From Leptospirales bacterium (GTDB lineage: Bacteria; Spirochaetota; Leptospiria; Leptospirales; Leptospiraceae): a stretch of 64,000 bases of DNA. Both the position numbers and the translations under genes were made by a program. The stretch is from contig JAAFIR010000018.1 in NCBI GenBank assembly GCA_013297885.1, positions 1-64,000 of the forward strand, in the 5' to 3' direction. Positions 1-18,888 of this stretch are shown piece after piece. Positions within the stretch are counted from its first letter, which is position 1, and each line of letters starts with the position of its first letter. The notes beneath the pieces were generated by a model, which saw only the letters and a list, made by a program, of their open reading frames with translations, was not told the origin of the DNA and searched no databases.

Positions 1-1340
1 GTTTAATCTCACATCAAAAGTCCCGGTTCCACCTTCTGGAATTGTAGTGATGTTTTGGGTAATGATAATACCTTGCACGTCATTGTCAACTGTGTTGATA
101 CTACCGGCAGACGATACTAGTCCCACTCCACTTGCATTAATTGATACTGTTTCAGAAACAATATTAGCATCTTCTAATCCATTGATCTGAACTGCTTGGG
201 GAATATTCCAATTGTTTTGGTCAAAGCTTAGTGAAGTTGAGCTTAATGTCACTGCAAGTATATTAGAACTTGCTAATGTAACAGTTCGAGCTGTTCCTGG
301 ATTTCCACTCAGTGCAACATTCAAAAGTGTGTTTGCATTCTCATTTACTGTGGCTGCATGTGTCAGTGTAATTGTAATATCATTGTCGAGTGTTGTGAAA
401 TTGGAATTTACAGTTGTTGTAGCTGGGGCTGTGGATGTGATTACAATATTTTCCAAGGACTGGTTTGCTTCTTCAAGTCCGTTTAGTGTAATCGTTTTAT
501 TTGAACTCCAACAATTTACACCAGGACATACATTATCAAATGTAGTGCTTGCTACAGCTGTTGTTGCTGATGCTGGAATATTACTAGCAAAACTTACGAC
601 AAGTGAAGGACTTGGCTCTGCATTTAGTCTCACATCAAAAGTCTGAGTGCCACCTTCTGGAATCGTAGTGATGTTTTGGGTAATGATAATCCCTTGCATG
701 TCATTGTCAACTGTGTTGATACTACCGGCAGACGATACTAGTCCCACTCCACTTGCATTAATAGTTACAGTTTCAGAAACAATATTAGCATCTTCTAGTC
801 CGTTTATCTGAACTGCTTGGGGAATATTCCAATTGTTTTGGTCGAAGTTTAGTGAAGTAGAGCTTAATGTCACTGCGAGTATATTAGAACTTGCTAATGT
901 AACAGTTCGAGCTGTTCCTGGATTTCCACTTAAGCTTACATTCAAAAGTGTGTTTGCATTTTCGTTTACATTTGCTGCATGTGTCAGTGTAATTGTAATA
1001 TCATTGTCTAAAGTTGTATAGTTAGAATTTACAGTTGTTGTAGCTGGGGCTGTGGAAGTGATTACTATATTTTCTAAGGACTGGTTGGCTTCTTCCAGTC
1101 CGTTTATTGTAATAGTTTTGTTTGAACTCCAACAATTTACACCAGGACATACATTATCAAATGTAACTGATCCAACTGCTGTTGTTGCTGATGCTGCAAT
1201 ATTACTAGCAAAACTTACGACAAGTGATGGACTTGGCTCTGCGTTTAATCTCACATCAAAAGTCTGTGTCCCACCTTCTGGAATCGTTGTAATGTTCTGG
1301 GTAATGATAATCCCTTGCACATCATTGTCAACTGTGTTCA
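1..1340 (-). repeat. 621-bp tandem repeat inside the lipoprotein gene
   Basis: The block at 10-620 recurs at 631-1241 and begins again at 1252. The period is exactly 621 bp (207 codons). By eye the copies match at about nine bases in ten, far more than the older repeats at 1340-2900. Each unit codes for two Calx-beta-like modules. Recent duplication or gene conversion is the likely origin, and copy number may vary between strains. Confidence 0.9.
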
Positions 1341-2994
1341 CATTCAAAGTTCCTGTTGCTAAAAAAGTTCCAGTCCCTGTTACAGTGAAAGGTTCAGTAA
1401 TAATATTTGCATCCTCAATTCCATTTAAAACAACAGACTGAAAATAATTGGAAGGAGTCATTACTAGTGATAGATTACTTAAAGTGCCTGCAAACAAATT
1501 GGAGCTAACCAAATTTACCGTCCTTGGAATTCCTGGATTTCCAGTAAGTGCAACTGTGATTAAAGTATTTCCACCTTCGTTAACTGTTCCTGCTCCTGTA
1601 ATAATAATTTTAGTATCATCGTCAATTGTGATAAGATTATATATTTGCATTGGAGCAACTGTTGTTGTTAGATAAACTGAAGCAGATTCAGAAGTTTCAT
1701 TTATTTCATCTATTGCAGTGATTGTAACTGGTTGATCGATATTATAATTTCCAGGAGTAAATGTTAAAGTGGCAGGAGAAACAGTTACTGAAGATGGAAG
1801 GCTACTAGCAATGTTTACAGTTACATTTGTTGGAGGCATATTCGAAAGTTGCACCTGAATTGTATTATTTGTATTTTCATCTAGAGTAGTAAACCCACCC
1901 GTTACAATAATATTTTGTGAGTTTGTATCAATAGATTGAATATTTAAAACAACAGGTGCCATACCTGTAGCTTGAAGAGTTAAAGTAACATTTTCTGAAA
2001 CTAAATTTACATCAGGAACTGCTGCCAGAGTAACGTTTTGATCTATCTGTGAATTACCTGAAGTATAATTTAAAGTAATCGATCCTCCACCGTTTATAGA
2101 AATTGCAGATGGATTAGAACTAGTAATAGTAATATCGTTTGCCGATAGTAATGTTTTAAAAAATCTTGCACCCATTAAAATAGAATTTCCTTCAATTATG
2201 GAAGTTGGTGCATTAGTTGTTAAAATCACATTATCATCAATGATTTGAAAATCATAATTATTATCAGTTGTTCCTATTAGTCTAAAACTAATTCTAGTGT
2301 TTGTATTATTTGAGTCTCCATCAATAACGGCATATATAGCTAAATTTTGAGAAGTATTATAATTTGTTGGGGTAAAAGTTAAACTAGTAGTTGAAGCTCC
2401 ATTTACTAAGACTGAAGAATTGTTTGGAACAATATTTACAGTTACTGAAGTGAGTGGTGCTTTAGATAAGCTAACACCAACATTAATCGTTTCTCCTTCT
2501 TGGATAGAAGGTGTTGTCCCAGATAATACTATACTAGAATCATCTGACAAAAATATAAATAAAATTAAATCATCTGTATCTTCTGCTGTACATTTAATAA
2601 TCACCGAATCTGAAATATTATCATTATCAACTTTTGCAGTTAATTTAACTTCTTGACTTATTGCAAAATTTGCAGAGGTAAAATTAAATTCATTCACTTG
2701 AAGTCCATTTAGAACTAGACTTGGAAAATTGGAACTACAACTCACTTTAGTATCTTTACGAGGATTTTCTTTTAAATATAGCCCAAGATTTAATTCTTGA
2801 CCTTCTTGGATTGTAGTAGTAATACCTGTTACAATAATTTTATTCTTTGGAGGAGGATTTAGTCTAAATGGATCCAAACTCAAATATAAACCAGTAATTG
2901 TTTTTGGATCAAAAATACTTAGTTCAGAACCAGCACAATGATTTAGAAAAAAAAGAATCAAAAATAAAATTTTATAATTTTTAAAAATTTTCAT
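1..2994 (-). CDS. Calx-beta-like repeat surface lipoprotein (C-terminus beyond window)
   Basis: The reading frame is open from an ATG at 2994 to base 1 (998 codons, no stop), so the C-terminus lies outside the window. The N-terminus (MKIFKNYKILF...LNHCAGS) is a lipoprotein signal peptide with a lipobox Cys near residue 20. The rest is a chain of roughly 100-residue beta-sandwich-like repeats. Each starts near an EGG/NEN segment and ends in a DND or DDD signature (for example TTLDNDITITL), as in Calx-beta domains. The repeats nearest the left edge are almost identical copies. Each 207-residue unit has one CPGVNC cysteine pair, which could form a disulfide. It starts 12 bp after the stop of the caspase-like gene, so the two are probably co-transcribed. 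I infer an exported, possibly surface-exposed binding protein; the ligand is unknown. Confidence 0.85.
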   Translation of the reverse strand, partial: MKIFKNYKILFLILFFLNHCAGSELSIFDPKTITGLYLSLDPFRLNPPPKNKIIVTGITTTIQEGQELNLGLYLKENPRKDTKVSCSSNFPSLVLNGLQVNEFNFTSANFAISQEVKLTAKVDNDNISDSVIIKCTAEDTDDLILFIFLSDDSSIVLSGTTPSIQEGETINVGVSLSKAPLTSVTVNIVPNNSSVLVNGASTTSLTFTPTNYNTSQNLAIYAVIDGDSNNTNTRISFRLIGTTDNNYDFQIIDDNVILTTNAPTSIIEGNSILMGARFFKTLLSANDITITSSNPSAISINGGGSITLNYTSGNSQIDQNVTLAAVPDVNLVSENVTLTLQATGMAPVVLNIQSIDTNSQNIIVTGGFTTLDENTNNTIQVQLSNMPPTNVTVNIASSLPSSVTVSPATLTFTPGNYNIDQPVTITAIDEINETSESASVYLTTTVAPMQIYNLITIDDDTKIIITGAGTVNEGGNTLITVALTGNPGIPRTVNLVSSNLFAGTLSNLSLVMTPSNYFQSVVLNGIEDANIITEPFTVTGTGTFLATGTLNVNTVDNDVQGIIITQNITTIPEGGTQTFDVRLNAEPSPSLVVSFASNIAASATTAVGSVTFDNVCPGVNCWSSNKTITINGLEEANQSLENIVITSTAPATTTVNSNYTTLDNDITITLTHAANVNENANTLLNVSLSGNPGTARTVTLASSNILAVTLSSTSLNFDQNNWNIPQAVQINGLEDANIVSETVTINASGVGLVSSAGSINTVDNDMQGIIITQNITTIPEGGTQTFDVRLNAEPSPSLVVSFASNIPASATTAVASTTFDNVCPGVNCWSSNKTITLNGLEEANQSLENIVITSTAPATTTVNSNFTTLDNDITITLTHAATVNENANTLLNVALSGNPGTARTVTLASSNILAVTLSSTSLSFDQNNWNIPQAVQINGLEDANIVSETVSINASGVGLVSSAGSINTVDNDVQGIIITQNITTIPEGGTGTFDVRLN

Positions 2995-3006: not shown

Positions 3007-4317
3007 CTAAAATCTAAATTGAAAATACAAATCATATTTTTTATCAGCTGAAATTGAATATTTATCAATTTCAAAAAGATTCATTTTAAATTGAATAGCC
3101 CAGAAATAATCATTTCCTTTAAATAGAAATAAATCAAGCAAATTCCAAGCCCAAAAAGCTCCTACTAGAGTAAGAGATTGGTTAAATTTTTTTTCATTTT
3201 CCTCTACATCTTTCCTTTTTGGTTCAAAGATTAAATAGTTTTGAACAAAAGTATCTCCTTGTCCAGCACGTGCGGGAATTAAAAAAGTAGATTCATAATT
3301 TTTTTTTGATTCCAAAAATAAATTATATCTATATGCAGAATGAAGTCCTAAAAGTAAAAAAATAGAAACATATGAAATACCTTTTTCTTTTCCTCCAGAA
3401 TAATATTGTCCCCATCCAGGAATAAAAAAGGAACGGGCAAGAGCTGGAAACTTTGAATTACTTGTTTCAAAATTTTTCGAGTCTACTGAAGATTTTGTAT
3501 TTTCATCTAATACTGAAATTGGAAGAGTTGAATTTTTTGAAAGATATTTTAAGAATGGTTTTTGACTTCTGTCATTTTCTGCTGACCAAGTTTCAACTGA
3601 ATTTTTTACAAATTTATCAATTTCTTCAATTGTAATAATTTTATCAGAATTATAATCAGCTTTACCTTCTAAACCTAAACATATAAATTTTGTAAATACA
3701 CCAAACTTAGATTTATTATCTTCATAAGAAAAAAAACCATCTTTACTTGAAGAAAAAAAACTGAATGATTCATTAGCTTCATATTTTTCTGATTTAAAAC
3801 CTGTAGTTAAAATTTCTTTTCGATTTGTGTTTAAAATTTCTCTGTTAGAATCCAAAATCATCATAGAATGTTTAAAATTTTTAGATTTAATTTTTTTTAC
3901 AATTTCGTCTAAATTTACTCCCGTATAATTGTATTTATCCAAAGAAGAATCTTGTGCTAATAAGAAATTTTGATTTTCGTTATCTGTCACTGCTTGACCA
4001 GAAAAGAAAAAAAGAAAATGATCATTTTGATTTAAACGATTTAATATTTGATCTAATTTTGTTTCTATATTATTTTTTGTTGGAAAAAGCTCACTAGACT
4101 TATTTAAATTATCAGTTAAAATAATAGTTTCATCAAATGCTGAATTTTCAGTTAAAACTTTAGCTAAAAGAGTAGCATCGTTTCTTGCATTATTTAAACT
4201 TAGGATTTGGTTACTTTCATATTCATTAATTCCAATCAATATAGCAATTCTTTTCACTTCCGAATCTTTAGAATGAATAAAACTTATACTTAAAATTAAA
4301 CTTAAGAATAATTTCAT
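3007..4317 (-). CDS. Inactive caspase-like (peptidase C14 fold) exported protein
   Basis: A signal peptide (residues 1-16) is followed by a caspase/metacaspase-like domain. It begins RIAILIGINEYES (23-35) and includes LNNARNDA (41-48). Where active members have a HG motif after the FxxSG strand, this protein has FFFSGQA (104-110; Gln108 replaces His). Where the Cys nucleophile follows a DxC pattern, it has LDSN (155-158; Asn158 replaces Cys). Both catalytic residues are therefore missing. An EF-hand-like segment, DYNSDKIITIEE (221-232), follows, as in many C14 proteins. The C-terminal part has IPGWGQYYSGGKEKG (299-313) and hydrophobic helices, resembling DUF5683-type membrane modules. It is the first gene of a pair with the repeat lipoprotein. 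I infer a binding or scaffold role in the envelope. Confidence 0.8.
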   Translation of the reverse strand: MKLFLSLILSISFIHSKDSEVKRIAILIGINEYESNQILSLNNARNDATLLAKVLTENSAFDETIILTDNLNKSSELFPTKNNIETKLDQILNRLNQNDHFLFFFSGQAVTDNENQNFLLAQDSSLDKYNYTGVNLDEIVKKIKSKNFKHSMMILDSNREILNTNRKEILTTGFKSEKYEANESFSFFSSSKDGFFSYEDNKSKFGVFTKFICLGLEGKADYNSDKIITIEEIDKFVKNSVETWSAENDRSQKPFLKYLSKNSTLPISVLDENTKSSVDSKNFETSNSKFPALARSFFIPGWGQYYSGGKEKGISYVSIFLLLGLHSAYRYNLFLESKKNYESTFLIPARAGQGDTFVQNYLIFEPKRKDVEENEKKFNQSLTLVGAFWAWNLLDLFLFKGNDYFWAIQFKMNLFEIDKYSISADKKYDLYFQFRF

Positions 4318-6323: not shown

Positions 6324-7529
6324 TTATTTAGTTTCTTTTGCTAATTGTTCTAACTCTTGAATACGTTTTGTTTTATCATCACTTTCCCAAGGTTTTTTTG
6401 TAAACTGAGAACTAGTTAATGTTTTAGTTTTATATTCTTCAGTAAATGGAATTACCATTTCTTTATCTGGCTCTGTAGTTTTTGCAGCTTGAATTTTTTT
6501 CAAACCCTCTTCACCTTGATCATACCAAGCTGGATCAATTGGAAGATTCACTCTATATCCACGAGCATTTGTTAAAATATAAGGACCATCATAACCTTTG
6601 TCTCTCAAAATTTTTCCATAATACAAAAATTCAACTTCTTGAGTTCCTTGTTTTAACTGACCATCAAAAGTCGCAAATGCTAAATAATTTCCTTCTTTCG
6701 CTTCTTTTAAATTTGCTTCTAAATGATAATTTCCAGCTTTAAAGACATTTAATGTAGCATAAATCACAAGAGAACCATTAACGATTCCTTCTCTAAAATT
6801 ATTTGTAAATTCAGCGGGTTTATTTGGAGAAGAAAAAAAGCTAGAAGTAAGTTTTGCTTTTTTATTTGTTCCGTAAGTGATGTTTGCTTCAAGTGACATT
6901 TGTCCCCAATCGTTTTTAAGTGGTCTCCATTTAAAAGTATAAATTCCATCTTTTGCGGTTTCATCACCATCTCTTCCATCATCATTAAAATCAGGAGAAT
7001 GAGTTGGAGTTTTTTGATCTTCAAATTCTTTAAATACAGTTGCATTAAGGATAGAAAATTTTGCTAATGTTTGTGAAGCATCTCTACATTCTAATTTTAT
7101 GATCATATCAGAATTTGGTCCAATTACAGCCCAAGTTTTTGGTTGTAATAAACATCTATAACCATTTCCTTTTTCATCTTTTACATTATCAACCATAGTT
7201 AGAGCATCTATATCTAATTTAAATGGATAAACAATATCTTCATTCAAATTGGAAATGGGTCTTGATTGAGGTGGATATTGAGCCCACTCATTGTATTGTT
7301 CTAATAAAAATTTTGGTGTGATACCAAATTTTTCATCTTGGTTTGATGACTCAGAAGATGTTGAAGCTGTCCCATCACTAATATCTTGTGGTGACGAATT
7401 TGTTGGGTCTGATGTTTTTGACATTGTATTATTTGATTTAGAAGTTTTTTTTCCGCCTGGTTTCATAATAAAAAAGGCAACACCCGCAAGTATTAAGCCA
7501 ATTATTGTAAATAGAATTTTTTTATTCAT
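6324..7529 (-). CDS. Membrane-anchored periplasmic protein with beta-sandwich domains
   Basis: The 401-residue protein begins with one N-terminal membrane helix (residues 4-22, LFTIIGLILAGVAFFIM). A Ser/Thr/Asn-rich linker (25-75) follows, then a globular domain. The segment PDFNDDGRDGDETAKDGIYT matches the Asp/Gly-rich signature of 'choice-of-anchor X' type beta-sandwiches. A second beta-rich unit follows, with a YDGPYILTNARGYRVN segment. The topology suggests anchoring in the inner membrane with the domains in the periplasm. A strong ribosome binding site (GGAGGG) precedes the ATG. It is the first gene of the operon with the S1 protein and trmL, an odd pairing for an envelope protein. Its function is unknown. 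Confidence 0.7.
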   Translation of the reverse strand: MNKKILFTIIGLILAGVAFFIMKPGGKKTSKSNNTMSKTSDPTNSSPQDISDGTASTSSESSNQDEKFGITPKFLLEQYNEWAQYPPQSRPISNLNEDIVYPFKLDIDALTMVDNVKDEKGNGYRCLLQPKTWAVIGPNSDMIIKLECRDASQTLAKFSILNATVFKEFEDQKTPTHSPDFNDDGRDGDETAKDGIYTFKWRPLKNDWGQMSLEANITYGTNKKAKLTSSFFSSPNKPAEFTNNFREGIVNGSLVIYATLNVFKAGNYHLEANLKEAKEGNYLAFATFDGQLKQGTQEVEFLYYGKILRDKGYDGPYILTNARGYRVNLPIDPAWYDQGEEGLKKIQAAKTTEPDKEMVIPFTEEYKTKTLTSSQFTKKPWESDDKTKRIQELEQLAKETK

Positions 7530-15442: not shown

Positions 15443-15581
15443 AGACTTATCTAGTTTATTAGATATTTTAAATGCATCAAAACTAATTCTTGGTTTTATT
15501 CAAAGTAAATCTTTTAGAGACTTTGAAACTGATATGATGTTAAACTCTGCAGTGGAAGGTAGTACCAATGGAACAAATTGA
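15435..15581 (+). pseudogene. hepT: HepT-type HEPN toxin, truncated
   Basis: The 48-codon frame starts MDRDLSSLLDILNASKLILG and continues SFRDFETDMMLNSAVE, the classic N-terminal half of HepT (about 110-140 residues normally). After AVE the sequence leaves the family and stops, so the Rx4HxY RNase motif of the C-terminal half is lost. The breakpoint (about 15553) lies just before the ribosome binding site of the next gene. The toxin cannot be functional. Confidence 0.82.
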
Positions 15582-18500
15582 AAAATTATTTCATATCAGA
15601 CTCTATTTTATTTTAGAAGAAGGAATTGAACCCACATTATTATATGGAATGATTTCTCCCAAAGAAGATGAAATAATATATTTAAATAAATTAAGTTCTT
15701 ATAATATTGAAAAGAAATTTACACGCCCCAAAATAAGAATTGATAGATTAGATTTTTACACAACAGAAAATTTATGTGGTAAATTTTTTAAGCAAATTCA
15801 AGATAAGTCAATTAGTGATTTTGAAGAATTTGACTTTACTGAAGTTAAAAAAAAAGAGCTGCTAAAATGGAAATTAAATGGAAATATAGTTTTATTTAAA
15901 AATGTATTTTTAGAATCTGATTCTTCTAGTAATTCATTAAGAGAACACCGAAGTTGGCAAAATATAAACATGGGCTCAAGTCTGGCTGATATATATTTGC
16001 AATTAGATAAAGATTATTTTTTTAGCAAAGGTAAAGAATTCTTTATAAATTTGAACAATTTTTTTAAAAAAGAAACGGGGATTAAATTAATTGAAATTGA
16101 ATCCGACGAAATGTTTCCTTATGGTGAGGAATGGAAAAGATTAGGTAATCTTGAATTTATTAAAAGAAGTGAAAAGAAAAAAAATCAAGATTTGTTTGAA
16201 ATAAAATTTTCTTCCTATTCAATTAATTTTTTAATCAAACCAGAACTTTCAAATAAAAAATATATTTCAGTTAGTTATATGTTATCAAATTTTGGATTAA
16301 TTCATTCAAGTGGAATGAAATCTTGCAAAATCAATAAAGAAATAATTACAGAAATTGACTTTACTATTGAAACGAACTTAGCTTGTAAATTTTCTTATCA
16401 GATTTATGAAAGTAATGATGGTATTTCTTATAATTTAATTGCTGAACATAATGTTTTATATATTAAAGCTTTTCAATTTAGTTTAAGGATAATGACTGAT
16501 TTACCTGAGTTACATTCCAGTGATAGTTATTGGAATCGATTTATAACAAATCTTTCTCAAAAAGAAGAAAAAAAGAAAAATCTTCTCAAAATAGAAAAAT
16601 ATAATTTTAATGAAGTGCAAACAGTTCGTCCAGAGAAAAAAGATTTTTTTTATGATTTGCAAAAATATGAAAAGCTTATCCAAGAAAGTAGAAATAAAAA
16701 AAGCAATTCTTATTCAAAGTTTTTTAATGGAAATGACAAGGATAAATATGAATTTGCATTATTTTTAAAAAATGTCTGTGATAGTTTTAAAAAGAAAGGA
16801 GTTAAAATAAATAAAATCATTTTAGCTGACCCTTTTGCAAATGCTGAAACAATTCAATCTTTTATTGTCCATCAAGATTCACATGTTGAACTGATTTTAA
16901 ACTCTTCACAAAAAAGAGAAAGAACAGAAAGTGATCCAGAAGGAGACTCAGATCAACCACTAATAAATAAAATCATACAAGCTTGTTTAGAATATTCAGG
17001 TAAAATACCTACAGATACTAAAATTATTGATATAAATAAAATTTCAAATCCAAAAGAAAGATCATTTCATGACAGATATATTTTGATTGAAACTAGTTAT
17101 AGTGGAAAAATATTTTATAATGGTTTTTTACTAAGTTCATCACTATCTTCTTATTTTGCTGGAACTCCAGCATCAATTAGCGAGCTAGATGTTAATACTA
17201 GTACTGAAATATTTAATTATTTAGAAGCTCTGAAATCAGGATACTCCAACTTAGAGAAAATGAAGAATAATAAAAAAGATTTAGTAGTAAGTGAAATTTG
17301 GCCAGGAATTTATGCTCAAAAAAAAATAATTGCTCAGAATGAAAAAACAAATTTAAAAAAAGAAATTTTAGATTTTGGCATTAAATTACTCAAACAAAAT
17401 AATATAAATTTTCCAATTGAACTAGAAGAATCAGAATACAAAGAAATAATTGAATATAAACCAAAATTTCAAAATAATTTAAAAATTGATTTAACGAATT
17501 TAGTTCCTTATTTTCAAAATAAACCTACTGAAGAGAGCATTCAATTTTTTGCTTTTTTAAATATTTTATCAGTTCATACTTATAGTGAGAATGAAGAATT
17601 TTTCCAGTCATTATATGATTCATTTTTATCGAATCAACTCGTAAAAGAAAAATACATCCAGTATGTTAATGAATGGGAAAATTACAACTCACCAATTGGA
17701 ATTAAAAATGAATTTATTTCGTATGAACAATTACCTATTTTACAAAAACTATTTTTTGTATTTAAAGATTCTCCTCATATTTGGCTCAAAAGTATTTCGG
17801 ATAGAGAACAAACTCCATGTTATCATAATGATTTACTCACAGAATTATATGAATTATATCTTCAATTTGATCCAGAATTTGCCATAAAACTTTTAGAAAA
17901 TTTATTTGATGAATCTAATTTTTTTGAAAAGTTGAATTTGATTTCAAATGAAACTGAATTAAGGAAATTACAAAAAACTTCTAGACTTGGACAAGCTTTA
18001 AAAGCCAATTTTTTATATTACATTAGAGCAATCAGAATACCAAAATTTTTTATAACTCTAACTGGATCAAAAAATACTTGGATCAAACAATTGGGGCTGA
18101 TTGGAGTTTATAATCTTAAAACAGGTTTATTGGATAATTTTTCAGAAGAATTCAAATCATTAATAGAAAACGAGGAATTTCTTTCAAATAAAATATCTGA
18201 AACAGATAAGATTAGTTTCATTTATACAATTTATTCACACTGGATAAAATTAAAATTAGAGTTAATTCATAAAAAATTAAAAAATGAAAAATTCTATTTA
18301 GAAAGTAAAACAGAATTTTTTAATTACTTTAAGAATTTAGATGATAATGAAATTTTTGAAAAAATGAAAATTTTTTTATTTATTTATCAAAATGATTTAG
18401 ATGTGATTGTTGAAATAATTCAAGAAGCAAAAGAGTTTTTTTCAGCTGAAGTAATCCAAAAATTATATGAAGAAATTTTAATTAGATTTATAGCATTAAA

Positions 18501-18888
18501 GCTAAAAGAAAAAAACAAAGAATTAGAAATTCATTTCAATGGATATTTTAGCTTTAAAAGAATTAAATTAAATGAAGTATTTAATTTACTCAAAGATAAA
18601 GACTCATTAAAAAAAAGAGCTTGGGAGATTTTAGAAAAATTCAAAAAAAATACTTTAATCAAATTTAATGATCCTTTTATTCGAAGAAAGAATTTAAATC
18701 GCATTTGGAAGTTAACTGAAGGATTAGCTTGGTGTGTTTTTTTTATACTTGTATTGGACTTTGATAAAAATGAAATAGATGAATTTGATAAATTAGTAAT
18801 GTTCTATTTTGAAAAACGTGAAAGAGTATATTATGATTGGCCAGATTTTAATAGTTTAATAGGGGCTAGTGATATAGAGGCAACTTAA
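15568..18888 (+). CDS. Large VPA1262-like / PLD-like protein, candidate defence effector
   Basis: The 1106-residue soluble protein has an ATG preceded by GGAAGG. Its N-terminal part (LYFILEEGIEPTLLYGMISP...) resembles the VPA1262-type N-terminal domain. The middle contains a degenerate phospholipase-D-like module: LADPFANAETIQSF (about 419-432), a HDRYILIE segment (His501) in the place of the PLD HxK motif, then GFLLSSSLSSYF. Such HDR-type PLD modules occur in conflict and phage-defence proteins. Residues 560-1106 are helical and Lys/Glu-rich with no recognised domain. It is not in an operon with intact neighbours and sits beside a broken toxin-antitoxin pair and repeats, which suggests acquisition by transfer. 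The family assignment is tentative and the biological role is inferred. Confidence 0.6.
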   Translation: MEQIEKLFHIRLYFILEEGIEPTLLYGMISPKEDEIIYLNKLSSYNIEKKFTRPKIRIDRLDFYTTENLCGKFFKQIQDKSISDFEEFDFTEVKKKELLKWKLNGNIVLFKNVFLESDSSSNSLREHRSWQNINMGSSLADIYLQLDKDYFFSKGKEFFINLNNFFKKETGIKLIEIESDEMFPYGEEWKRLGNLEFIKRSEKKKNQDLFEIKFSSYSINFLIKPELSNKKYISVSYMLSNFGLIHSSGMKSCKINKEIITEIDFTIETNLACKFSYQIYESNDGISYNLIAEHNVLYIKAFQFSLRIMTDLPELHSSDSYWNRFITNLSQKEEKKKNLLKIEKYNFNEVQTVRPEKKDFFYDLQKYEKLIQESRNKKSNSYSKFFNGNDKDKYEFALFLKNVCDSFKKKGVKINKIILADPFANAETIQSFIVHQDSHVELILNSSQKRERTESDPEGDSDQPLINKIIQACLEYSGKIPTDTKIIDINKISNPKERSFHDRYILIETSYSGKIFYNGFLLSSSLSSYFAGTPASISELDVNTSTEIFNYLEALKSGYSNLEKMKNNKKDLVVSEIWPGIYAQKKIIAQNEKTNLKKEILDFGIKLLKQNNINFPIELEESEYKEIIEYKPKFQNNLKIDLTNLVPYFQNKPTEESIQFFAFLNILSVHTYSENEEFFQSLYDSFLSNQLVKEKYIQYVNEWENYNSPIGIKNEFISYEQLPILQKLFFVFKDSPHIWLKSISDREQTPCYHNDLLTELYELYLQFDPEFAIKLLENLFDESNFFEKLNLISNETELRKLQKTSRLGQALKANFLYYIRAIRIPKFFITLTGSKNTWIKQLGLIGVYNLKTGLLDNFSEEFKSLIENEEFLSNKISETDKISFIYTIYSHWIKLKLELIHKKLKNEKFYLESKTEFFNYFKNLDDNEIFEKMKIFLFIYQNDLDVIVEIIQEAKEFFSAEVIQKLYEEILIRFIALKLKEKNKELEIHFNGYFSFKRIKLNEVFNLLKDKDSLKKRAWEILEKFKKNTLIKFNDPFIRRKNLNRIWKLTEGLAWCVFFILVLDFDKNEIDEFDKLVMFYFEKRERVYYDWPDFNSLIGASDIEAT

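Follow-up and report, generated by a model that had tools for sequence, protein, structure and literature searches.

A caspase-fold protein that has lost the His/Cys dyad, encoded beside a repeat lipoprotein gene in a Leptospirales bacterium

The substrates of bacterial caspase homologues are, to our knowledge, mostly not known. Inactive homologues have already been described as pseudo-orthocaspases (PMC6426788; PMC3501461); in the survey given there, 858 of 9,994 orthocaspases, or about 9%, are of this kind, with the variants YS, YN, YA, FS, QC and HA, and those of cyanobacteria keep an acidic S1 pocket (PMC6426788). The same source cites the pseudo-metacaspases MC1 and MC4 of Trypanosoma brucei, in which the dyad is replaced (HS, YS). 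Here we analyse a further homologue encoded in a window of 64,000 nucleotides, the whole stretch under study of a Leptospirales contig from a Leptospiraceae genome. The features discussed below are as follows.

1 to 2994, minus strand: large lipoprotein with Ig-like repeats, cut by the contig start; in two congeners the gene behind the caspase gene is its orthologue
3007 to 4317, minus strand: exported pseudo-caspase with a C-terminal PGWGQ membrane module, 436 amino acids (open reading frame, Pfam, alignment, AlphaFold2)
3010 to 3453, minus strand: PGWGQ membrane module of LIC11435 type at the C-terminus, residues 289-436 (alignment, AlphaFold2, NCBIfam)
3550 to 4254, minus strand: caspase-fold domain, residues 22-256 (Pfam C14, AlphaFold2 pLDDT mostly above 90, Foldseek)
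3622 to 3657, minus strand: EF-hand-like loop D221-E232, general in bacterial C14 relatives (alignment, consensus)
3844 to 3849, minus strand: Ser157-Asn158 replacing Ala-Cys, the Cys being the nucleophile (alignment with relatives, codons)
3850 to 3852, minus strand: Asp156, the counterpart of Asp211 in the S1 pocket of T. brucei MCA2, kept (alignment)
3991 to 3996, minus strand: Gln108-Ala109 replacing the catalytic His-Gly (alignment with relatives, codons)
4177 to 4179, minus strand: Asp47, the counterpart of Asp95 in the S1 pocket of T. brucei MCA2, kept (alignment)

The open reading frame at 3007-4317 is intact, with an ATG start and 436 codons, and its product begins with a hydrophobic N-terminus of the type typical for exported proteins. 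Residues 22-256 match the Pfam family Peptidase_C14 (PF00656) at 64.5 bits, against a cut-off of 21.4. The AlphaFold2 model of the 436-residue protein has a mean pLDDT of 82.7, mostly above 90 in the caspase domain, where the confidence is partly aided by the alignment of relatives, and with a weak loop at about residues 160-180. A Foldseek search with this model ranked the MALT1 paracaspase highest, with a TM-score of 0.79 by the length of 3v4o, ahead of metacaspases. By both profile and fold the protein belongs to peptidase family C14, taken as a protein family, and the model indicates that a MALT1-like caspase fold is retained, as the original prediction had it.

The catalytic dyad is absent. 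Aligned with its relatives, the protein has SGQA in place of SGHG (Q108, A109) and LDSNR in place of LDACR (S157, N158), which bears out the predicted replacement of His and Cys by Gln and Asn. The codons are CAA GCA and TCT AAC, those of the two orthologues introduced below being CAT/CAC GGG/GGC and GCA/GCC TGT; we ruled out sequencing error as implausible, because at least five base changes across four codons are needed to give Gln-Ala and Ser-Asn. We also considered a substitute His or Cys in the active site. The complete list of other such residues is H15, H100, H150, C213 and H326. They occupy the signal region, strand starts, a helix and the membrane module, and in the sequence and the AlphaFold2 model none of the five is placed where the two catalytic strands end; this candidate was rejected, and the other His/Cys pair that would have spoken against the original prediction is not seen. 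The protein lacks the His-Cys dyad of active orthocaspases and paracaspases and has the sequence marks of a pseudo-orthocaspase, a p20 domain with His and/or Cys replaced and no alternative residue. Because the dyad is lost and no other His or Cys can serve, sequence and model together make it almost certain that the product is not a caspase-type protease. The changed residues might support some other chemistry, the protein still being an enzyme, and both catalytic positions do remain polar (Gln, Asn), but the site offers no usual nucleophile or general base and no further His or Cys lies near it, so that we regard this as highly improbable. We know of no peptidase role for a Gln/Asn pair.

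Full-length relatives occur in only five of the eight family genomes searched, and two of them, L031 and L032 from congeneric species, are identified as orthologues by the tree (96/94 for the full-length proteins) and by the identity values of the PGWGQ module given below. Both have an intact dyad, with SGHG and LDAC. The possibility of a domain swap was rejected, since a tree of the caspase domain by itself places it with these two orthologues (92/86) and the stretch GFKSEKY is common only to them and the window protein. Among the distinct caspase domains of related genomes in which both positions could be aligned, 31 of 32 have His-Cys and the sole Gln-Asn is that of the window; we used this count instead of the 126 of 129 obtained in a scan of the genome contigs, which is biased because the scan searched by the pattern FSGHG. 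His-Cys is also present at the other three caspase-domain loci in the window's genome. As far as these sequences go, the dyad loss is secondary and specific to the window's lineage, and the Gln/Asn pair is not the family property that had been envisaged. The window's species has one member of the full-length family, compared with several in each congener. In another genome (G003), a caspase gene of the same family at L040:1-1115 is apparently frameshifted.

The neighbouring lipoprotein gene starts with an ATG at 2994, at exactly the 12-bp spacing given in the original prediction, and runs off the contig end at base 1 of the window. It is called a lipoprotein on the basis of its spirochaete-type N-terminus (LNHC) and its orthologues. 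Its description as a repeat lipoprotein holds, but the name Calx-beta finds no support: there is no Pfam Calx-beta match at E 0.01, and a model of two repeats is all-beta, with tandem sandwiches that match Ig-like folds. Downstream of both orthologous caspase genes lies the same lipoprotein gene, overlapping by 4 bp or starting directly at the caspase stop codon; the encoded proteins are 52-55% identical to that of the window and share with it the N-terminal motif DPK...G...S.DPF.LNPPPK. A lipoprotein gene comes directly after the caspase gene at eight of the nine testable family loci. The paralogous caspase genes L033, L036, L074, L075 and L043 likewise precede one; four of these five lipoproteins carry a second shared N-terminal motif,.P.DG..G.L/F, and the remainder of the sequence differs. 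The L037/L038 type of locus has a non-lipoprotein gene downstream of the caspase gene. Upstream of the window's pair are genes (trmL-like, S1-domain, 6324-7529) whose congeneric counterparts have no adjoining caspase gene, so the pair appears to have been kept together while its chromosomal place changed. Gene order thus indicates that the caspase-lipoprotein pair, not the surrounding region, is conserved across species and chromosomal places, in agreement with the proposed pairing, and we infer that the two products are also physical partners. Since the orthologues have both His/Cys and the same neighbour, the pairing probably arose with an intact protease and catalysis was lost later.

Contig C32 of genome G000 (locus L158:3-3095) probably carries the other half of the window's lipoprotein gene; its start continues the reading frame with the following repeat (59% match), and it has no sequence overlap with the end of the window's lipoprotein. 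The lipoprotein part on C32 is followed by a gene for an OmpA-domain lipoprotein and then by genes resembling a CusCBA-type efflux operon. Near the caspase gene in two congeners (L031:2349-2756 and L075:6-392) lies a gene for a small exported protein that by eye resembles a FecR domain; it has no Pfam match and was not seen beside the window's pair. The lipoprotein following the caspase gene at L043:1-242 has a long Gly-Thr dipeptide repeat. Elsewhere in the window, at 15568-18888, is an open reading frame of 1106 amino acids with no Pfam match at E 0.01.

The PGWGQ-type membrane module named in the original prediction proved real by alignment. It opens with RSFFIPGWGQ and continues as two long helices containing hydrophobic stretches; as in its relatives, the last residue is Phe. 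AlphaFold2 models the tail behind the two hydrophobic helices with low confidence. Against the NCBIfam LIC11435 family (NF047756) the protein scores 45 bits, through the C-terminal module only and below the curated cut-off of 380. Matches to this family are widespread in the order, and LIC11435-like genes in genomes G000 and G006 overlap the gene of a large exported protein. This gene order suggests that PGWGQ proteins may be general membrane partners of large exported proteins, and the caspase one exported domain among several. Overlaps of this kind are found at L205:3716-8069, L206:3319-6785 and L207:3170-6446, and at L205 a cyclase-like gene lies upstream of the two.

The two halves of the protein have evolved differently. 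Between the orthologues, the caspase domain is 83% and the PGWGQ module 64% identical, whereas between the orthologues and the window protein the values are 41-44% and 53-55%, so that the better-conserved half is the caspase domain in the first comparison and the module in the second; between paralogues the module is 24-31% identical. On a fixed tree, the caspase-domain branch is 1.11 for the window and 0.29 for the orthologues (3.8 times), that of the module 0.31 and 0.63 (0.5 times), and the contrast was reversed in none of 60 bootstraps. The same genomes share 64-69% identity in the products of two neighbouring genes. At columns invariant in nine dyad-bearing relatives, the window's caspase domain deviates in 19 of 80, and five of those nine, tested likewise, deviate in 0-4, a comparison that shows much relaxed constraint on the domain in the aligned sequences. 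We rejected the dyad loss as a hot spot, since by hand count 4 of the 10 motif sites are changed and 15 of the 70 remaining invariant ones, which is not clearly above the general acceleration.

Such relaxation is what would be expected of a decaying relic, in which catalysis has become useless, only the membrane module and translational coupling to the lipoprotein are needed, and the domain drifts in a frame kept for the module behind it. The roughly fourfold acceleration of the caspase domain and not of the module, the changed invariant columns and the single family member kept in the window's species all fit this explanation. Its difficulty lies in the kind of change. The substitutions in the caspase domain have a mean BLOSUM62 score of +0.34, compared with -0.74 (sd 0.17) under neutrality, and none of 500 simulations reached the observed value; each of these runs of equal neutral drift also met at least six stop mutations. 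The fold is confidently predicted as well, helped by the alignment of relatives. Because the substitutions are far more conservative than the neutral expectation, the fold does not seem to be simply rotting, and averaged over the whole branch the sequence signal is one of constraint relaxed, yet not abolished; part of the conservative pattern may predate the catalytic loss, and both the rate and substitution tests represent one strain of the window's species. We consider a relic somewhat unlikely and treat it as the main rival, a live alternative that the evidence does not firmly separate from an accessory or binding role. Loss of activity with a retained fold, which had been taken to imply a structural role, does not by itself do so.

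Asp47 and Asp156 align with the S1-pocket residues of T. brucei MCA2 given in PMC6426788, and Ser106 is kept together with them. This would suit a pseudoenzyme for peptide recognition, whose acidic pocket binds Lys or Arg of the lipoprotein or another envelope protein with no cutting, and the pocket is the one kept in cyanobacterial pseudo-orthocaspases (PMC6426788). However, the S1 aspartates and the EF-hand ligands are retained no better than the overall rate of 76%, nor does Ser106 raise the pocket above this background, and the window's lipoprotein lacks the basic pair (KK, KR) that follows the lipidated Cys in the orthologues' lipoproteins; we think this explanation quite unlikely. A loss of Lys/Arg cleavage sites in the lipoprotein partner was dropped as an argument, the sites being very few. 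The EF-hand-like loop singled out in the original prediction is present, with the pattern D221-x-N223-x-D225...E232, but nothing special, since the consensus of 67 diverse relatives has the same loop and it is thus a general C14 feature.

The reading that we prefer, and to which we give about an even chance, is that an ancestral protease has become the non-catalytic partner of a surface lipoprotein, which it serves as a membrane-anchored accessory protein. In the membrane topology that we infer, an inner-membrane anchor would leave the caspase-like domain in the periplasm, and the protein would handle the product of the same transcript, a large surface or periplasmic repeat lipoprotein. The ancestral form, still present in sister species, would be an intact His/Cys peptidase, probably acting on the lipoprotein or regulated with it; intact versions may cut the lipoprotein or a regulator, and that of the window could only bind or space. 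In the window's species the dyad would have been lost, the membrane module and gene pairing staying under constraint, and the caspase domain would persist non-catalytic and folded, probably to bind or space the lipoprotein, and may bind peptide. A bolder version, which we hold to be unlikely, is that Leptospirales have an envelope system built of modules, where a PGWGQ module carries an exported effector domain, in this branch a caspase-like protease, that is encoded with one large repeat lipoprotein and works on it, the window's protease now being its non-catalytic receptor. If so, the species would offer a natural pair of active and inactive orthologues with the same lipoprotein partner. In either case the partner gene is conserved across species and chromosomal places and kept where the enzyme is naturally dead. 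This is a built-in comparison for learning how intact exported caspases act on the lipoprotein, and for asking whether PGWGQ modules serve as general partners of surface repeat proteins across the Leptospira group.

Among known systems, the closest solved folds are those of the MALT1 paracaspase and type I metacaspases, which differ from the window protein in being active enzymes and not exported. MC1 and MC4 of T. brucei similarly combine a caspase fold with a lost dyad, but are eukaryotic, have other substitutions and are without such a partner gene. The LIC11435 family of Leptospira has a homologous C-terminal WRSxxxPGWGQ membrane module and its genes overlap that of a large exported protein, although the N-terminal domain looks beta-rich instead of being a caspase domain. 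In the literature searched we found no report of a caspase-lipoprotein pair or of a fusion of the LIC11435-type module to a caspase, and a Gln-Asn pair is not among the variants named in the consulted sections of the pseudo-orthocaspase papers (PMC6426788; PMC3501461). With pseudo-orthocaspases the window protein shares the C14/p20 fold, the replacement of one or both catalytic residues and the acidic S1 pocket; unlike them it has Gln-Asn, is exported, carries a PGWGQ membrane module and is paired with a lipoprotein gene, and its dyad was lost once, in one lineage whose close orthologues are intact. Pseudo-orthocaspases as such are already known, and what appears from the sequences to be new here is the Gln/Asn dyad and the lipoprotein pairing.
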